A stretch of 64,000 nucleotides of DNA, taken from positions 248,001 to 312,000 of the forward strand of contig NZ_BMDJ01000004.1 of assembly GCF_014635725.1 (NCBI RefSeq), given 5' to 3'. The stretch is from Pedobacter mendelii (GTDB lineage: Bacteria; Bacteroidota; Bacteroidia; Sphingobacteriales; Sphingobacteriaceae). The notes under the pieces are model-generated. The model searched no databases, had not been told where the DNA came from, and saw only the letters and a program-made list of their open reading frames with translations. Positions 12,011-15,962 of this stretch are shown in pieces. A program made the position numbers and the translations under genes. The first letter of the stretch is position 1. Each line of letters starts with the position of its first letter.

Positions 12011-12193
12011 CTACATTTTTTTAGTCGTGTCCGTCATCATAGTGTCTTTAGCCATAGTATCTTTTACAGTAGTATCAACAACAGAAGAATCAACGGTTGT
12101 AGAATCAGTACTCTCAGCTTTTTTTTCTGAGCAAGCAACTACTGATAGAGATAAAGCTAAAGCTAAAAAGCCTAATTTGAATGCATTTTTCAT
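12011..12193 (-). CDS. Small Asp/Thr/Ser-rich lipoprotein, paralog 1
   Basis: The ATG at 12193 gives 60 residues. An upstream in-frame ATG at 12223 would add ten charged residues before the signal peptide and is unlikely. The signal peptide MKNAFKLGFLALALSLSV ends in the lipobox VVAC. The mature part is short and unstructured-looking, built from repeats of DTT/VDTTVKDTM/KDTMMTDTT. It is the most diverged of three neighbouring paralogs. Its own ECF-type promoter (12239-12266) and terminator (11961-11990) make it an independent unit. The function is unknown; envelope-stress-induced lipoproteins are the best guess from context. Confidence 0.85.
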   Translation of the reverse strand: MKNAFKLGFLALALSLSVVACSEKKAESTDSTTVDSSVVDTTVKDTMAKDTMMTDTTKKM

Positions 12194-12238
12194 TTTGTTT
12201 TGTTTTTGTTGGTTGGTTTTCAATTAATTAATTATAAA

Positions 12239-12266
12239 TTAATACAATAATTTTGAAAAGGTAACC
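12239..12266 (-). promoter_or_regulatory. ECF-type promoter of lipoprotein paralog 1
   Basis: On the minus strand GGTTAC (12261-12266) is followed after exactly 15 bases by GTATTAA (12239-12245), 46 bases before the start codon at 12193. The same pair and spacing recur at four other sites between 12589 and 13098. Confidence 0.75.
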
Positions 12267-12280
12267 TTTTTTTGTAAAAA

Positions 12281-12312
12281 AAAAGAGTTTAGACAGAAAT
12301 CTAAACTCTTTT
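12281..12312 (-). terminator. Terminator of lipoprotein paralog 2
   Basis: Arms AAAAGAGTTTAGA and TCTAAACTCTTTT are perfect 13-bp complements with a 6-nt loop. A long A-run to the left gives U's on the minus strand. Confidence 0.85.
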
Positions 12313-12332
12313 TTATAAATTAAAGCAAAAAA

Positions 12333-12551
12333 TTAGTGTTTTACTTCAGTTTTTTCAGTTGTAGCTTTAACTGTTGTGTCTTTAACTGTAGAATCTTTAA
12401 CCATAGTGTCTACGGAAGTAGTATCTGTAACGATGGTAGAAGAATCAGTTAAAGTTGTATCAGCTCCGCCTTCTTTTTTTTCTGAGTTACAAGCTGCAAC
12501 TGATAAAGATAAAGCTAAAGCTAAAAAGCCTAATTTGAATGCATTTTTCAT
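12333..12551 (-). CDS. Small Asp/Thr/Ser-rich lipoprotein, paralog 2
   Basis: This 72-aa lipoprotein shares the signal peptide MKNAFKLGFLALALSLSV with its two neighbours, with lipobox VAAC. The mature chain begins NSEKKEGGAD and continues as imperfect repeats (DTTLTDSS, DTTSVDTMVKDSTVKDT), ending TEKTEVKH. It has no Cys after the lipobox, no aromatic residues and no catalytic motif. The 5' third of the gene is almost identical at DNA level to the other copies. It lies between its own ECF-type promoter (12589-12616) and its terminator (12281-12312). Confidence 0.88.
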   Translation of the reverse strand: MKNAFKLGFLALALSLSVAACNSEKKEGGADTTLTDSSTIVTDTTSVDTMVKDSTVKDTTVKATTEKTEVKH

Positions 12552-12588
12552 TTTCGAGATTTTTTTTGTTTTATTTATTAATTATCTC

Positions 12589-12616
12589 TTAATACCTCAA
12601 TATTAAAAAGGTAACC
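12589..12616 (-). promoter_or_regulatory. ECF-type promoter of lipoprotein paralog 2
   Basis: Minus-strand GGGTTAC (GGTTAC at 12611-12616), a 15-base spacer and GTATTAA (12589-12595), 38 bases upstream of the ATG. The spacer is not conserved with the other copies, but both boxes are. Confidence 0.78.
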
Positions 12617-12625
12617 CAAAAAAAC

Positions 12626-12659
12626 AAAAAGGCCTTGAAAAATATTTCAAGGCCTTTTT
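12626..12659 (-). terminator. Terminator of lipoprotein paralog 3
   Basis: Arms AAAAAGGCCTTGAAA and TTTCAAGGCCTTTTT are perfect 15-bp complements with loop AATA. It separates paralog 3 from the promoter of paralog 2. Confidence 0.88.
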
Positions 12660-12676
12660 ATATAAGTAAAATTAAA

Positions 12677-12895
12677 TTAGTTTTTTACCTCTGTTTTTTC
12701 AGTAGTAACTTTAACTGAAGTATCTTTTACTGTTGAATCTTTAACCATAGTATCTACAGTAGTAGTATCAGTAACCATAGTAGAAGAATCAGTCATTGTA
12801 GTATCAGCACCATCAGCTTTTTTTTCTGAATTACAAGCTGCAACTGATAAAGATAAAGCTAAAGCTAAAAAGCCTAATTTGAATGCATTTTTCAT
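12677..12895 (-). CDS. Small Asp/Thr/Ser-rich lipoprotein, paralog 3
   Basis: This 72-aa lipoprotein is close to paralog 2 along its whole length: same signal peptide and VAAC lipobox, then NSEKKADGAD and repeats DTTMTDSS and DTTTVDTMVKDSTVKDT, ending TEKTEVKN. It is the copy nearest the divergent ECF sigma gene. Its promoter motif (12929-12956) lies back to back with the sigma-gene promoters, so one short intergenic region holds three copies of the motif. No function can be assigned from sequence. The high acidic, Thr and Ser content suggests a flexible, surface-exposed chain. Confidence 0.88.
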   Translation of the reverse strand: MKNAFKLGFLALALSLSVAACNSEKKADGADTTMTDSSTMVTDTTTVDTMVKDSTVKDTSVKVTTEKTEVKN

Positions 12896-12928
12896 GTCGA
12901 ATTTTTTTTAAGTTTTAATTATTTACTC

Positions 12929-12956
12929 TTAATGCTGCAAAGGTAAAAAGGTAACC
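12929..12956 (-). promoter_or_regulatory. ECF-type promoter of lipoprotein paralog 3
   Basis: Minus-strand GGGTTAC (GGTTAC at 12951-12956), a 15-base spacer and GCATTAA (12929-12935), which has one change from the other -10 boxes. It ends 33 bases upstream of the ATG. Confidence 0.75.
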
Positions 12957-12999
12957 CGACAATTTTAAAAAAAATAAAAATATTTTTTTTTACCGTTTG

Positions 13000-13028
13000 G
13001 GTTACTGTTTTAATGTGGATAGTATTAA
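13000..13028 (+). promoter_or_regulatory. ECF-type promoter upstream of the sigma gene, distal copy
   Basis: Plus-strand GGGTTAC (GGTTAC at 13000-13005), a 16-base spacer and GTATTAA (13022-13028). Transcription from here would give a leader of roughly 65-70 bases before the sigma-factor start, so this is the more plausible autoregulatory promoter. Confidence 0.65.
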
Positions 13029-13070
13029 TCTACAGTTAGTAGCTATAAATATTTTTTTTATCTAATATTG

Positions 13071-13098
13071 GGTTACTATTTACAGAAAAAAGTATTAA
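13071..13098 (+). promoter_or_regulatory. ECF-type motif abutting the sigma-factor start
   Basis: Plus-strand GGGTTAC (GGTTAC at 13071-13076), a 15-base spacer and GTATTAA (13092-13098). The -10 box ends directly at the TTG/GTG start-codon region (13099-13104). If active, it could only give a leaderless mRNA or one starting inside the gene. Confidence 0.5.
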
Positions 13099-13101
13099 TT
13101 G

Positions 13102-13674
13102 GTGAATAACGGTTTAAAGAGTTCAGTTCCAACAGATAGAGAGGTAATTTTAGGTATTCTAAATAACTCTGGTGATACACTTAATAAATTATACAAGGCT
13201 CATTTTGCAATGATATTGCAATTTATCCTGAATAATAATGGCAACGAAGATGACGCAAAAGATGTTTATCAGGAAGCTATTATTATTTTATACAATAAAG
13301 TTAAAGAAGGAGATTTTGAACTTAGCAGCAAACTCAAAACATATATTTATTCAGTTTGCCGTCGTATTTGGTTAAAAAAATTAGCACAGAATAGTAAAAA
13401 GACTGGCAATATAACCGATTATGAAGATGTGTTTATTGTTGATGAAGATGTAGAGCATCACGAAGAAAAAGACGCAGCTTTTGTTAAAATGCAATCTGCG
13501 CTTGAAAATTTAGGAGAGCCTTGCAAAACCATTATTCAGGACTTTTACATAAATAATTTATCCATGCAGGATATTTGCGATAAGTTTGGTTATACCAATA
13601 CAGATAATGCAAAAACACAGAAGTATAAATGCCTGCAGCGATTAAAGAAGATATTTTTTAACACTATTAATTGA
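13102..13674 (+). CDS. ECF-type RNA polymerase sigma factor
   Basis: The product is about 190 residues, with region 2 (LYKAHFAMILQFIL through DDAKDVYQEAIIILYNKV and KTYIYSVCRRIWLKKL, the core-binding and -10 recognition helices) and region 4 (LGEPCKTIIQDFYINNLSMQDICDKFGY, the -35-binding HTH). No ATG exists near the N-terminus, so the start is GTG 13102 or TTG 13099. The stop is one base before the ATG of the protease/anti-sigma gene, so the two are translationally coupled. Two copies of the motif GGTTAC-N15/16-GTATTAA lie upstream, and the same motif precedes three divergent lipoprotein genes. Autoregulation is inferred from this. Confidence 0.93.
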   Translation: MNNGLKSSVPTDREVILGILNNSGDTLNKLYKAHFAMILQFILNNNGNEDDAKDVYQEAIIILYNKVKEGDFELSSKLKTYIYSVCRRIWLKKLAQNSKKTGNITDYEDVFIVDEDVEHHEEKDAAFVKMQSALENLGEPCKTIIQDFYINNLSMQDICDKFGYTNTDNAKTQKYKCLQRLKKIFFNTIN

Positions 13675-13675
13675 G

Positions 13676-14770
13676 ATGAGAAACGATTTAGATTTGGATG
13701 CAATTATTGAAGATTATCTTCTGGGTAAACTCAATTCTCAGGAAACTGAAGCCTTTGAGCAGTTACGTCTTAATGACGCCACAGTAGATCATAAGGTTGT
13801 ATCGCATAAAGTATTTCTTCATACAATGGAAGAATATGCTCAGCAATTGCGTTTAAAAGAGCAATTAGATATTTTTCATAGTGAAATTGATGTAGAAACT
13901 TTATCATCTCAACTGGGTCCTCATCCTTCACGTATCGTTCAGTTGTGGCGTAGACATAAATCTGCTATTGCGGTCGCAGCCTCATTTATAGCTTTATCTT
14001 TTGTCTCTATTTATTCTATTCAACACAATAGCCAGCAAGCTGATAAATTTGTGCAATTAAGTAAGAATGTAACAAATGCTGTGAAAACTCAGAATAATTT
14101 GATTAGAAAAATTAGCAGTGATAATTTACCTACAAATAAGCAATCTAATCCAGGTAATTTTGGTGGAACTGGTTTTGCAGTATCTACTAATGGATATATT
14201 GCTACAAATCTTCATGTAATAAAAGATGCTGATTCTGTATATATTCAAAATAGCGAAGGTGAATCTTTTAAAGTGAAAGTTGTTCATAGAGATTCTGAAT
14301 ACGATATTGCGATTTTAAAAATAGATGATAAGCATTTCAAAAATTTAGCAGCATTGCCTTATACAATTAAAAAGAACAGTACAGGCGTTGGAGAAAATGT
14401 TTATACTTGGGGTTACCCAAAAGATGATGCAGTGTTAGGAGAAGGTTATGTAAGTTCTAAAAGTGGTTTTATTGGCGATACAACGCAATATCAGGTTGCA
14501 ATTCCTTTAAACCCTGGAAACAGTGGCGGGCCATTGTTAGATAATAATGGTAACCTGGTTGGCATTATAAGTGGAAAAGAAACTTCTGCAGAAGGTGCTT
14601 CATTTGCAATAAAATCTAAATATATTTTAGAAGCAATGCGAGCAATTCCCCAAGATTCTTTAGGAAGAAAGCTTACTGTAGATAAAAAAAGTATTTTATC
14701 AGGAATGAAGCGTGCTAAGCAAATTCAAAAATTGCAGGATTACGTGTTTATGATTAAAGTTTATAATTAA
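13676..14770 (+). CDS. Membrane anti-sigma-like/trypsin-like serine protease fusion
   Basis: A 364-aa protein with three parts. Residues 1-90 resemble an anti-sigma cytoplasmic domain (IIEDYLLGKLNSQETEAFE followed by a helical stretch). Residues 95-115 form one transmembrane segment (AIAVAASFIALSFVSIYSI) after basic WRRHK, which places the N-terminus inside. Residues 155-340 are an HtrA/S1C-like protease with triad H180 (TNLHVI), D210 (YDIAIL) and S283 (NPGNSGGPLL), facing the periplasm. No PDZ domain follows, unlike DegP or DegS. The gene is one base after the ECF sigma gene. It likely holds the sigma factor at the membrane and senses envelope stress with its own protease. The fusion role is inference. 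Confidence 0.85.
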   Translation: MRNDLDLDAIIEDYLLGKLNSQETEAFEQLRLNDATVDHKVVSHKVFLHTMEEYAQQLRLKEQLDIFHSEIDVETLSSQLGPHPSRIVQLWRRHKSAIAVAASFIALSFVSIYSIQHNSQQADKFVQLSKNVTNAVKTQNNLIRKISSDNLPTNKQSNPGNFGGTGFAVSTNGYIATNLHVIKDADSVYIQNSEGESFKVKVVHRDSEYDIAILKIDDKHFKNLAALPYTIKKNSTGVGENVYTWGYPKDDAVLGEGYVSSKSGFIGDTTQYQVAIPLNPGNSGGPLLDNNGNLVGIISGKETSAEGASFAIKSKYILEAMRAIPQDSLGRKLTVDKKSILSGMKRAKQIQKLQDYVFMIKVYN

Positions 14771-14923: not shown

Positions 14924-15559
14924 ATGAGCATAAGATTAGGCGATACAGCACCAAACTTCCAGGCAAATACTTCAATTGGTGATATTGATTTTTACGATTA
15001 TTTAGGTGATAACTGGGGTGTTCTATTTTCCCATCCTGCAGATTACACACCTGTTTGTACAACAGAGTTAGGTCGCACCGCGGCATTAAAAGGTGAGTTT
15101 GAAAAACGTAATGTTAAAGTTTTAGCCATAAGTGTAGATACTGCTGAATCACATAATGGCTGGATTAATGATATAAATGAAACTCAAAATACATCAGTTG
15201 AATTTCCAATAATTGCTGATTCTGATAAAACAGTTGCAAATCTGTACGATATGATTCATCCCAATGCATCAGAAACATTAACAGTAAGATCGTTATTTGT
15301 TATCAGTCCTGATAAAAAAGTGAAACTGATTATAACATATCCTGCATCTACAGGAAGAAATTTTAATGAAGTTTTAAGGGTGATTGATTCGCTTCAATTA
15401 ACTGCCAATTACAGTGTTGCAACACCGGCCGACTGGAAAGATGGGGAAGATGTAATTGTTATCAATAGCATTAAAACAGAAGATATTCCTGCTAAATTTC
15501 CTAAAGGACATAAAGTTATCAAACCATATCTGCGTACAACACCCCAGCCTAATAAATAA
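14924..15559 (+). CDS. 1-Cys peroxiredoxin (Prx6-type)
   Basis: The 211-aa thiol peroxidase reduces H2O2 and organic peroxides in the cytoplasm. The peroxidatic Cys45 sits in HPADYTPVCTTELGR, the Prx6 signature. It is the only cysteine in the chain, so there is no resolving Cys and the enzyme must use an external thiol. A long C-terminal arm (ATPADWKDGEDVIV through FPKGHKVIKPYLR) is characteristic of Prx6 dimers. It lies directly after the ECF sigma/protease operon, but its upstream region lacks the GGTTAC-N15-GTATTAA motif, so it is probably not part of that regulon. Confidence 0.95.
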   Translation: MSIRLGDTAPNFQANTSIGDIDFYDYLGDNWGVLFSHPADYTPVCTTELGRTAALKGEFEKRNVKVLAISVDTAESHNGWINDINETQNTSVEFPIIADSDKTVANLYDMIHPNASETLTVRSLFVISPDKKVKLIITYPASTGRNFNEVLRVIDSLQLTANYSVATPADWKDGEDVIVINSIKTEDIPAKFPKGHKVIKPYLRTTPQPNK

Positions 15560-15764: not shown

Positions 15765-15962
15765 ATGGCTAAAGGAAAAGTTAAATGGTTTAACACTCAA
15801 AAAGGCTTTGGATTTATTGTTCAAGAAGACAATAAAGATTTATTTGTACATTTTAAAGATGTTTTAGGCGGAATTGAGAGTTTAAAAGAAAACGATCAGG
15901 TAGAATTTGAAGTAGCTGAAGGCAGAAAAGGTTTACAAGCTGTAAACGTTAAGAAAGTTTAA
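15765..15962 (+). CDS. Cold-shock-domain protein
   Basis: A 65-aa OB-fold RNA/DNA chaperone of the CspA family. RNP1 (KGFGFI, residues 13-18) and RNP2 (DLFVHF) are intact, preceded by the canonical KGKVKWFN. It melts mRNA secondary structure, typically after temperature downshift. The gene has its own promoter with a leader of about 120 nt and ends at a strong hairpin shared with the convergent methyltransferase gene. The name cspA is avoided because several paralogs usually exist in such genomes. Confidence 0.96.
   Translation: MAKGKVKWFNTQKGFGFIVQEDNKDLFVHFKDVLGGIESLKENDQVEFEVAEGRKGLQAVNVKKV

Follow-up and report, generated by a model that had tools for sequence, protein, structure and literature searches.

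Why should one two-box signal precede both an ECF sigma factor gene and three small lipoprotein genes that diverge from it, which protein reads that signal, and how might the reader be held in check? This arrangement occurs in the window, the 64,000-nucleotide stretch of Pedobacter mendelii DNA analysed here (contig NZ_BMDJ01000004.1, positions 248,001 to 312,000), for which a preliminary description had proposed a self-regulated sigma regulon from five copies of GGTTAC-N15/16-GYATTAA. All five copies were found again on the strands assigned to them (minus strand, 12239-12266, 12589-12616 and 12929-12956; plus strand, 13000-13028 and 13071-13098), and with the base preceding GGTTAC included they take their place among the following features:

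12011-12193, minus strand: lipoprotein 3, 60 aa from the ATG at 12193 (NF050142, 39.9 bits)
12239-12267, minus strand: predicted lipoprotein 3 promoter, AGGTTAC-N15-GTATTAA
12333-12551, minus strand: lipoprotein 2, 72 aa, 90% identical to lipoprotein 1 (NF050142, 47.7 bits)
12589-12617, minus strand: predicted lipoprotein 2 promoter, GGGTTAC-N15-GTATTAA
12624-12661, minus strand: terminator-like hairpin, 17 pairs and a T tail, 3' of lipoprotein 1 and ahead of the lipoprotein 2 promoter (one hairpin against 0.8 expected from shuffled sequence; weak when taken alone)
12677-12895, minus strand: lipoprotein 1, 72 aa, PG1828-like (NF050142, 47.4 bits; cut-off 50)
12929-12957, minus strand: predicted lipoprotein 1 promoter, GGGTTAC-N15-GCATTAA
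12999-13028, plus strand: P1, predicted distal sigma promoter, GGGTTAC-N16-GTATTAA
13070-13098, plus strand: P2, predicted proximal sigma promoter, GGGTTAC-N15-GTATTAA, 3 nt upstream of the GTG start
13102-13674, plus strand: ECF sigma factor gene, GTG start, 190 aa (Pfam Sigma70_r2, 32.7 bits, cut-off 24; TIGR02937 sigma70-ECF, 75 bits, cut-off 42.9)
13676-14770, plus strand: putative anti-sigma factor fused to a DegS/HtrA-type serine protease, 364 aa (Trypsin_2, 93.3 bits, cut-off 27.6)

The details given for the five sites held as well. GGGTTAC stands at four of them, the exception being AGGTTAC at 12267-12261, and the boxes are separated by 15 bases at four sites and by 16 once (13000-13028). 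The -10 boxes lie 33, 37 and 45 bases from the ATG codons at 12895, 12551 and 12193, respectively, within the 33-46 bases originally claimed; the last of these codons replaces the TTG at 12223 with which the mechanically called ORF of lipoprotein 3 had begun. A mean of 0.01 matches was expected per shuffled window, and none of the 100 dinucleotide shuffles of the window contained five. A scan of the organism's own genome (4.51 Mb, GGTTAC-N14..17-GYATTAA) returned seven matches, five of which are those at the locus; both of the others are N14 pairs within ORFs. A peroxiredoxin (AhpC/TSA) gene at 14924-15559 and a cold-shock protein gene at 15765-15962 lie downstream of the sigma operon, and GGTTAC-N15/16-GYATTAA is absent upstream of both.

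If the signal serves the sigma gene, it should accompany that gene in other species. We compared 70 related sigma loci, mostly from Pedobacter and Mucilaginibacter and also from Daejeonella, Sphingobacterium, Flavihumibacter, Pollutibacter and unclassified bins, among which the closest relative is Pedobacter jejuensis (sigma protein 96% identical). GGGTTAC-N15-GTATTAA adjoins the sigma gene in all 70, and its 14 box positions are unchanged over 45 distinct sequences; the loci come from related species, and 70 of 70 does not stand for 70 independent events. The -35 box that had been said to differ from the classic one is thus invariant at this position. Within 1,800 bases upstream of the related sigma genes, the two boxes are 15 bases apart in 167 pairs, 16 apart in 21 and never 14 or 17 apart, as expected from the claim that their spacing is conserved; the remaining nine pairs have distances of 6, 7, 23 or 24 (range examined, 5-30). 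Downstream of the same genes, 503,596 strand-bases contain no match. Among the 30 best same-genus loci, the window's own included and with possible overlap with the set of 70, P2 is invariant and is followed by GTG at 3 nt in every case.

The further claim that the spacers are not conserved stood for part of their length. In the P2 alignment, little is kept in columns 13-17 and 21-22 (0.02-0.63 bit), but the bases adjoining the -35 box and columns 18-20 are kept, the A/T columns 9-11 and 18-20 carrying 1.0-1.85 bit (1.0-1.7 bit for 18-20). The sigma-proximal spacer begins with ATT followed by T or C in 42-44 of 45 distinct sites, and at the lipoprotein sites CTTTT lies next to the -35 box in 59-62 of 62 distinct sites. 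The distal promoter is less regular: 23 of the 70 loci have an exact P1-like site on the plus strand, 19 of the 24 sites of this kind have a 16-nt spacer, and 47 loci have no exact P1. Pedobacter nototheniae has two identical copies of P1, one 161 and the other 93 bases ahead of the sigma match (a distance of 68 bases), as if a promoter segment had been duplicated. A divergent site lies at most 700 bases away in 59 of the 70 loci; the sequence is cut or masked in two of the remaining 11.

When lipoprotein-like ORFs in the related loci were picked by a lipobox rule and a site was defined as at least 12 of 13 box positions with N15, 72 of 85 ORFs carried the site, mostly with the ATG 34-37 bases beyond it. 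Several of the 13 ORFs without a site encode a different small lipoprotein (MKK..LSGCSVI), one looks like a chance ORF in the frame of another gene, and in P. jejuensis the third lipoprotein copy belongs to the family but has no good site (10 of 13 box positions). Six Mucilaginibacter loci (L046, L047, L048, L050, L054 and L076) have a different, tiny lipoprotein of 53-56 aa with a hydrophobic tail, whose gene lacks the motif. The window lipoproteins share with the PG1828 family (NF050142) their short length, an MKN-type signal and a lipobox, and all three score below the curated cut-off of 50 bits (39.9-47.7 bits).

As the three lipoprotein genes are adjacent paralogues and two of the proteins are 90% identical, their matching upstream boxes could be by-products of recent tandem duplication. 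We consider this explanation to have a negligible chance of being correct, since the same site precedes genes unrelated to these paralogues (sigma, DUF4349, DUF2459 and DUF4294; see below), with unrelated spacers. In Sphingobacterium multivorum and bacterium A37T11, moreover, the site is present at lipoprotein genes that lie on contigs other than that of the sigma gene, which favours action in trans over copying by local duplication. The invariant site at the sigma gene and the recurrence of the same signal at linked and unlinked lipoprotein genes support the self-regulated regulon originally suggested. An unlinked lipoprotein relative encoding a longer protein in the window's own genome (contig C1) has no GGTTAC in the 130 bases upstream.

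Sites beyond the locus indicate which other genes the signal may serve. GGTTAC-N15/16-GTATTAA has 172 matches in 36 same-genus genomes, compared with 30 for the reversed pattern, and 2 compared with 6 in 23 genomes of other families; in 11 chosen genomes, the counts are 42 for the site and 4 for the reversed pattern. Four recurring genes account for 26 of 33 distal places chosen among the matches listed: the site precedes a gene for a DUF4349 lipoprotein at 16 of them, for a DUF2459 protein at 5, for a small membrane protein at 3 and for a membrane protein of 450 aa at 2. Longer mechanical ORFs overrun three of these 26 sites (L179, L192 and L196), and the remaining seven places are mostly inside ORFs. 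An additional target in Daejeonella and Flavihumibacter is a DUF4294 protein, with the promoter 40-42 bases ahead of the start (L218, L219 and L240); the Pfam assignment rests on L218, and the other two are called DUF4294-type.

We also searched in the opposite direction, starting from the DUF4349 gene. Orthologues are present in 26 of 30 chosen same-genus genomes, and a site lies upstream in all 26, the window's own genome included, 14 of these genomes being those that had pointed to the family and the other twelve forming the independent part. Scored by script, 19 of 23 DUF4349 sites have 13 of 13 box positions and four have 12 of 13, with none of 200 shuffles reaching the score in each case; three further sites, missed by the script, were read separately, two of them having GCATTAA. 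In the window's own genome, the site (C9:137372, GGGTTACCTAAAACACTTTTTTGTATAAA) lies 97 bases upstream of the ATG and is the only other convincing one in a one-mismatch N15 search. With one mismatch allowed, this genome holds no excess over the reversed pattern (N15, 13 versus 18; N16, 15 versus 20, with 14 outside the locus). The extended motif (N15) with up to three mismatches gave 36 matches versus 42 for the reversed pattern, and the nearest candidates outside the locus, C15:38072, C1:169638 and C5:337829, were rejected as lying inside ORFs. The regulon visible in this genome by such patterns therefore looks to comprise the sigma operon, the three lipoproteins and DUF4349, and either is small or includes sites too degenerate to see.

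Conservation of this kind marks a bound site and leaves the binding protein unnamed, so the sites could instead be operators at which another DNA-binding regulator acts, or could be used as promoters by a different sigma factor with control over this sigma gene as well. One genome, G014, lends itself to that explanation in that it has the site before its DUF4349 gene and a close sigma orthologue was not found there (best E 3.4e-20), perhaps owing to a gap in an assembly of 620 contigs; with its DUF4349 site retained and its assembly so fragmented, we rejected it as a natural sigma-minus control. Against another regulator, the two boxes are unlike, non-palindromic, 15 or 16 bases apart and directed at the starts of the sigma and lipoprotein genes, which is the build of an ECF promoter, and the site precedes the sigma gene itself at every one of the 70 loci.

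Comparison of more distant homologues bears on the same question, as the part of the sigma factor that varies together with the site is region 4.2. In 11 divergent orthologues having the GGGTTAC site, 22-31 of 30-31 window-protein residues of region 4.2 are kept. In six homologues that come from other families and are 43-55% identical (L246-L251), 22-26 of these residues are kept, compared with about half over the whole protein; read by eye, they have GGGTTAC with G[TAG]ATTAA, GTATAAA or GATATAA at 15-16 bases, and in four of them (L247-L250) a divergent small lipoprotein gene starts 29-42 bases past a GGTTACCTTTT site with a looser -10 box. Region 4.2 retains 10-17 of 30-31 residues in four remoter homologues (L252-L255), of which L252 has GTTTAC-N16-GTATTA and L253, outside the branch, has AGGTTAC with GTATAC at 17 bases; the same scan found neither box at L254 and L255. 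In these comparisons the site fades together with region 4.2, and the link is graded, without a sharp edge. Short of experiment, this co-variation is the best support for the predicted reader being this sigma factor and, together with the build and position of the sites, it makes a different regulator quite unlikely. We consider it highly probable, judging from the DNA and the encoded proteins, that the locus specifies a small autoregulated ECF regulon.

The sigma gene itself is well defined. The 13102-13674 product is an ECF (group 4) sigma factor by its length and by model scores above cut-off; a sequence search against the PDB gave no match at E 0.01. In the window, the TAA within the -10 box of P2 is a stop codon in frame with the sigma ORF, which excludes any start upstream of 13099, and TTG 13099 and GTG 13102 are the only start codons ahead of region 2, the latter being the one kept in relatives. 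The start codon lies 2-4 nt past the P2 box in 64 of the 70 loci, being GTG in 62, and further downstream in six. Because 47 of the 70 loci lack an exact P1, P2 is presumably the working promoter there, and because P2 ends 2-4 nt before the conserved GTG, a sigma mRNA made from P2 probably has that codon at or next to its 5' end, i.e., is leaderless; we predict transcription to begin at 13102, give or take about one base. The preliminary description had expected starts 5-8 bases downstream of the GTATTAA boxes, which for P2 would be 13103-13106, within or beyond the conserved GTG, and this expectation is less simply fitted here. In Flavobacterium psychrophilum, leaderless mRNAs make up 5.5% of mapped mRNAs according to PMC9723704; a leaderless sigma mRNA would therefore be uncommon, yet precedented.

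How the sigma factor might be controlled is suggested by the gene that begins one base past its stop codon, which the preliminary description had left unmentioned. A second gene with the motif GNSG[GS][PA] adjoins the sigma gene in 65 of the 70 loci; in the other five, the record stops within the sigma gene or shortly beyond it. In the partner, an N-terminal domain some 95 residues long is followed by basic residues (WRRHK), a predicted membrane helix and a protease domain whose triad (H180, D210 and S283) is invariant in 24 of 24 aligned sequences. Judged by its Trypsin_2 match and intact triad, the 13676-14770 product carries a DegS/HtrA serine protease domain. An AlphaFold2 model (mean pLDDT 75.7, pTM 0.55) has MucD and DegS as its best fold matches, and a PDB profile search agrees. 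No PDZ match was found in the partner (Pfam, E 0.001), and a whole PDZ domain is unlikely because 47 to 67 residues remain past the trypsin-type match.

The N-terminal domain is less readily placed. Modelled alone, it is helical (pLDDT 88.7; helices 2-15, 21-33, 35-70, 73-80 and 86-94), and it has no family match at cut-off. The zf-HC2 family weakly matches 14 of 29 such domains (E up to 0.1, best 0.0003), not including that of the window protein at the same threshold, and NCBIfam anti-sigma models give weak matches in four and two of the 29. A PDB sequence search with the domain returned 12 matches (best E 0.058), none of them named as an anti-sigma factor, and Foldseek with its model returned four (E up to 10), none significant; two of the four are RslA (E 7.3, non-significant; VIA Z 5.7, rmsd 5.5, 63 residues aligned). 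The partners of the six nearer homologues (L246-L251) have the protease part when read by eye. The genes following the four remoter sigma homologues have the N-terminal domain in common (hhalign 97.6%, E 3.3e-12) and no protease motif, and one such partner has a weak RseA_N match (E 0.035). Because the N-terminal domain stays with the sigma gene and the protease joins in the GGGTTAC branch, we read the protein as an anti-sigma domain with an exchangeable sensor; the partner is thus probably an anti-sigma factor and a sensor protease in one chain, the anti-sigma role being the part drawn from context.

A protein with this layout could also be an effector. degP and mucD are well-known members of sigma-E-type systems, and if the regulon is real and the second gene likewise encodes an induced, membrane-anchored periplasmic protease, the sigma factor would be controlled in some other way. 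The failure of the N-terminal domain to match any family at cut-off is compatible with such a role, to which we give a minor share of the probability. It does not explain why the N-terminal domain, and not the protease, is what remains beside the sigma gene in the remoter homologues, and the scattered weak resemblances to zf-HC2, to anti-sigma models and to RseA_N point the other way. The full statement, of an autoregulated regulon that includes DUF4349, a fused anti-sigma/sensor protease and a leaderless start at P2, is in our view likely.

We infer the following pathway. The sigma factor (13102-13674), with specificity for the two-box site, would transcribe its own operon, comprising its gene and that of the fused partner, from P1 and P2, together with the three divergent small lipoproteins and the distant DUF4349 lipoprotein; its targets in other species would extend to a few further envelope proteins. 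At rest, the cytoplasmic N-terminal helical domain of the partner would bind and inhibit the sigma factor, holding it at the inner membrane. Envelope damage would be sensed by the periplasmic DegS/HtrA-type protease on the same chain, and the activated protease might cut its own chain, a neighbouring copy or another partner, thereby freeing the sigma factor; more sigma factor and small lipoproteins would then be made.

The proposed system resembles the sigma-E/RseA/DegS pathway of Escherichia coli and AlgU/MucA/AlgW, with MucD, of Pseudomonas, having in common with them an ECF sigma factor, a membrane protein encoded in the same operon, a DegS-type protease domain and an autoregulated two-box promoter. 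The sigma-E consensus is GGAACTT at -35 and GTCTAA at -10, whereas the window has GGGTTAC and GTATTAA, and the window targets are small lipoproteins. Unlike sigma-E/RseA/DegS, the window system has the anti-sigma-like domain and the protease on one chain, with no PDZ match. By this analogy the system would work like the sigma-E/RseA/DegS pathway and differ from it in its fused parts, promoter sequence and targets. Its most specific form would be a one-chain sigma-E pathway, in which one membrane protein combines the anti-sigma factor with its own site-1 protease, senses periplasmic damage, frees the sigma factor by cleaving itself or its neighbour and so drives a Bacteroidota envelope regulon from GGGTTAC-N15-GTATTAA, with a leaderless GTG sigma mRNA; this we offer tentatively, as somewhat short of an even bet.

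Within Bacteroidota, the closest described parallel for the promoter is the ECF motif SM6 of F. psychrophilum, which, according to PMC9723704, is likewise an ECF-type promoter with one site upstream of an ECF/anti-sigma pair; it differs in that its -10 region is described by a CGT box and its targets belong to T9SS, and GTTAC as a string is absent from the text of that paper. PMC7406223 describes ECF03 as the RpoE-like group of Bacteroidetes, in which a conserved nearby anti-sigma gene is absent, and places class I anti-sigma domains beside only 6% of Bacteroidetes ECFs. The window sigma factor is also a Bacteroidota ECF and, unlike ECF03 as described there, is of a type whose partner gene adjoins it in 65 of 70 loci, with the other five records cut off. 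The titles and abstracts searched, in which subscription journals are thinly covered, gave no description of the GGGTTAC-N15-GTATTAA motif or of the sigma/partner family.

ECF regulation in Bacteroidota is thinly mapped, and if the partner is an anti-sigma factor, the fused protein would shorten the classic chain of sensing, cleavage and release to one protein. The promoter is near-invariant over Pedobacter, Mucilaginibacter, Daejeonella and Sphingobacterium and has recognisable forms in more distant families, such that a pattern search can list candidate targets across many species, and GGGTTAC-N15-GTATTAA is a candidate expression tool for these bacteria.
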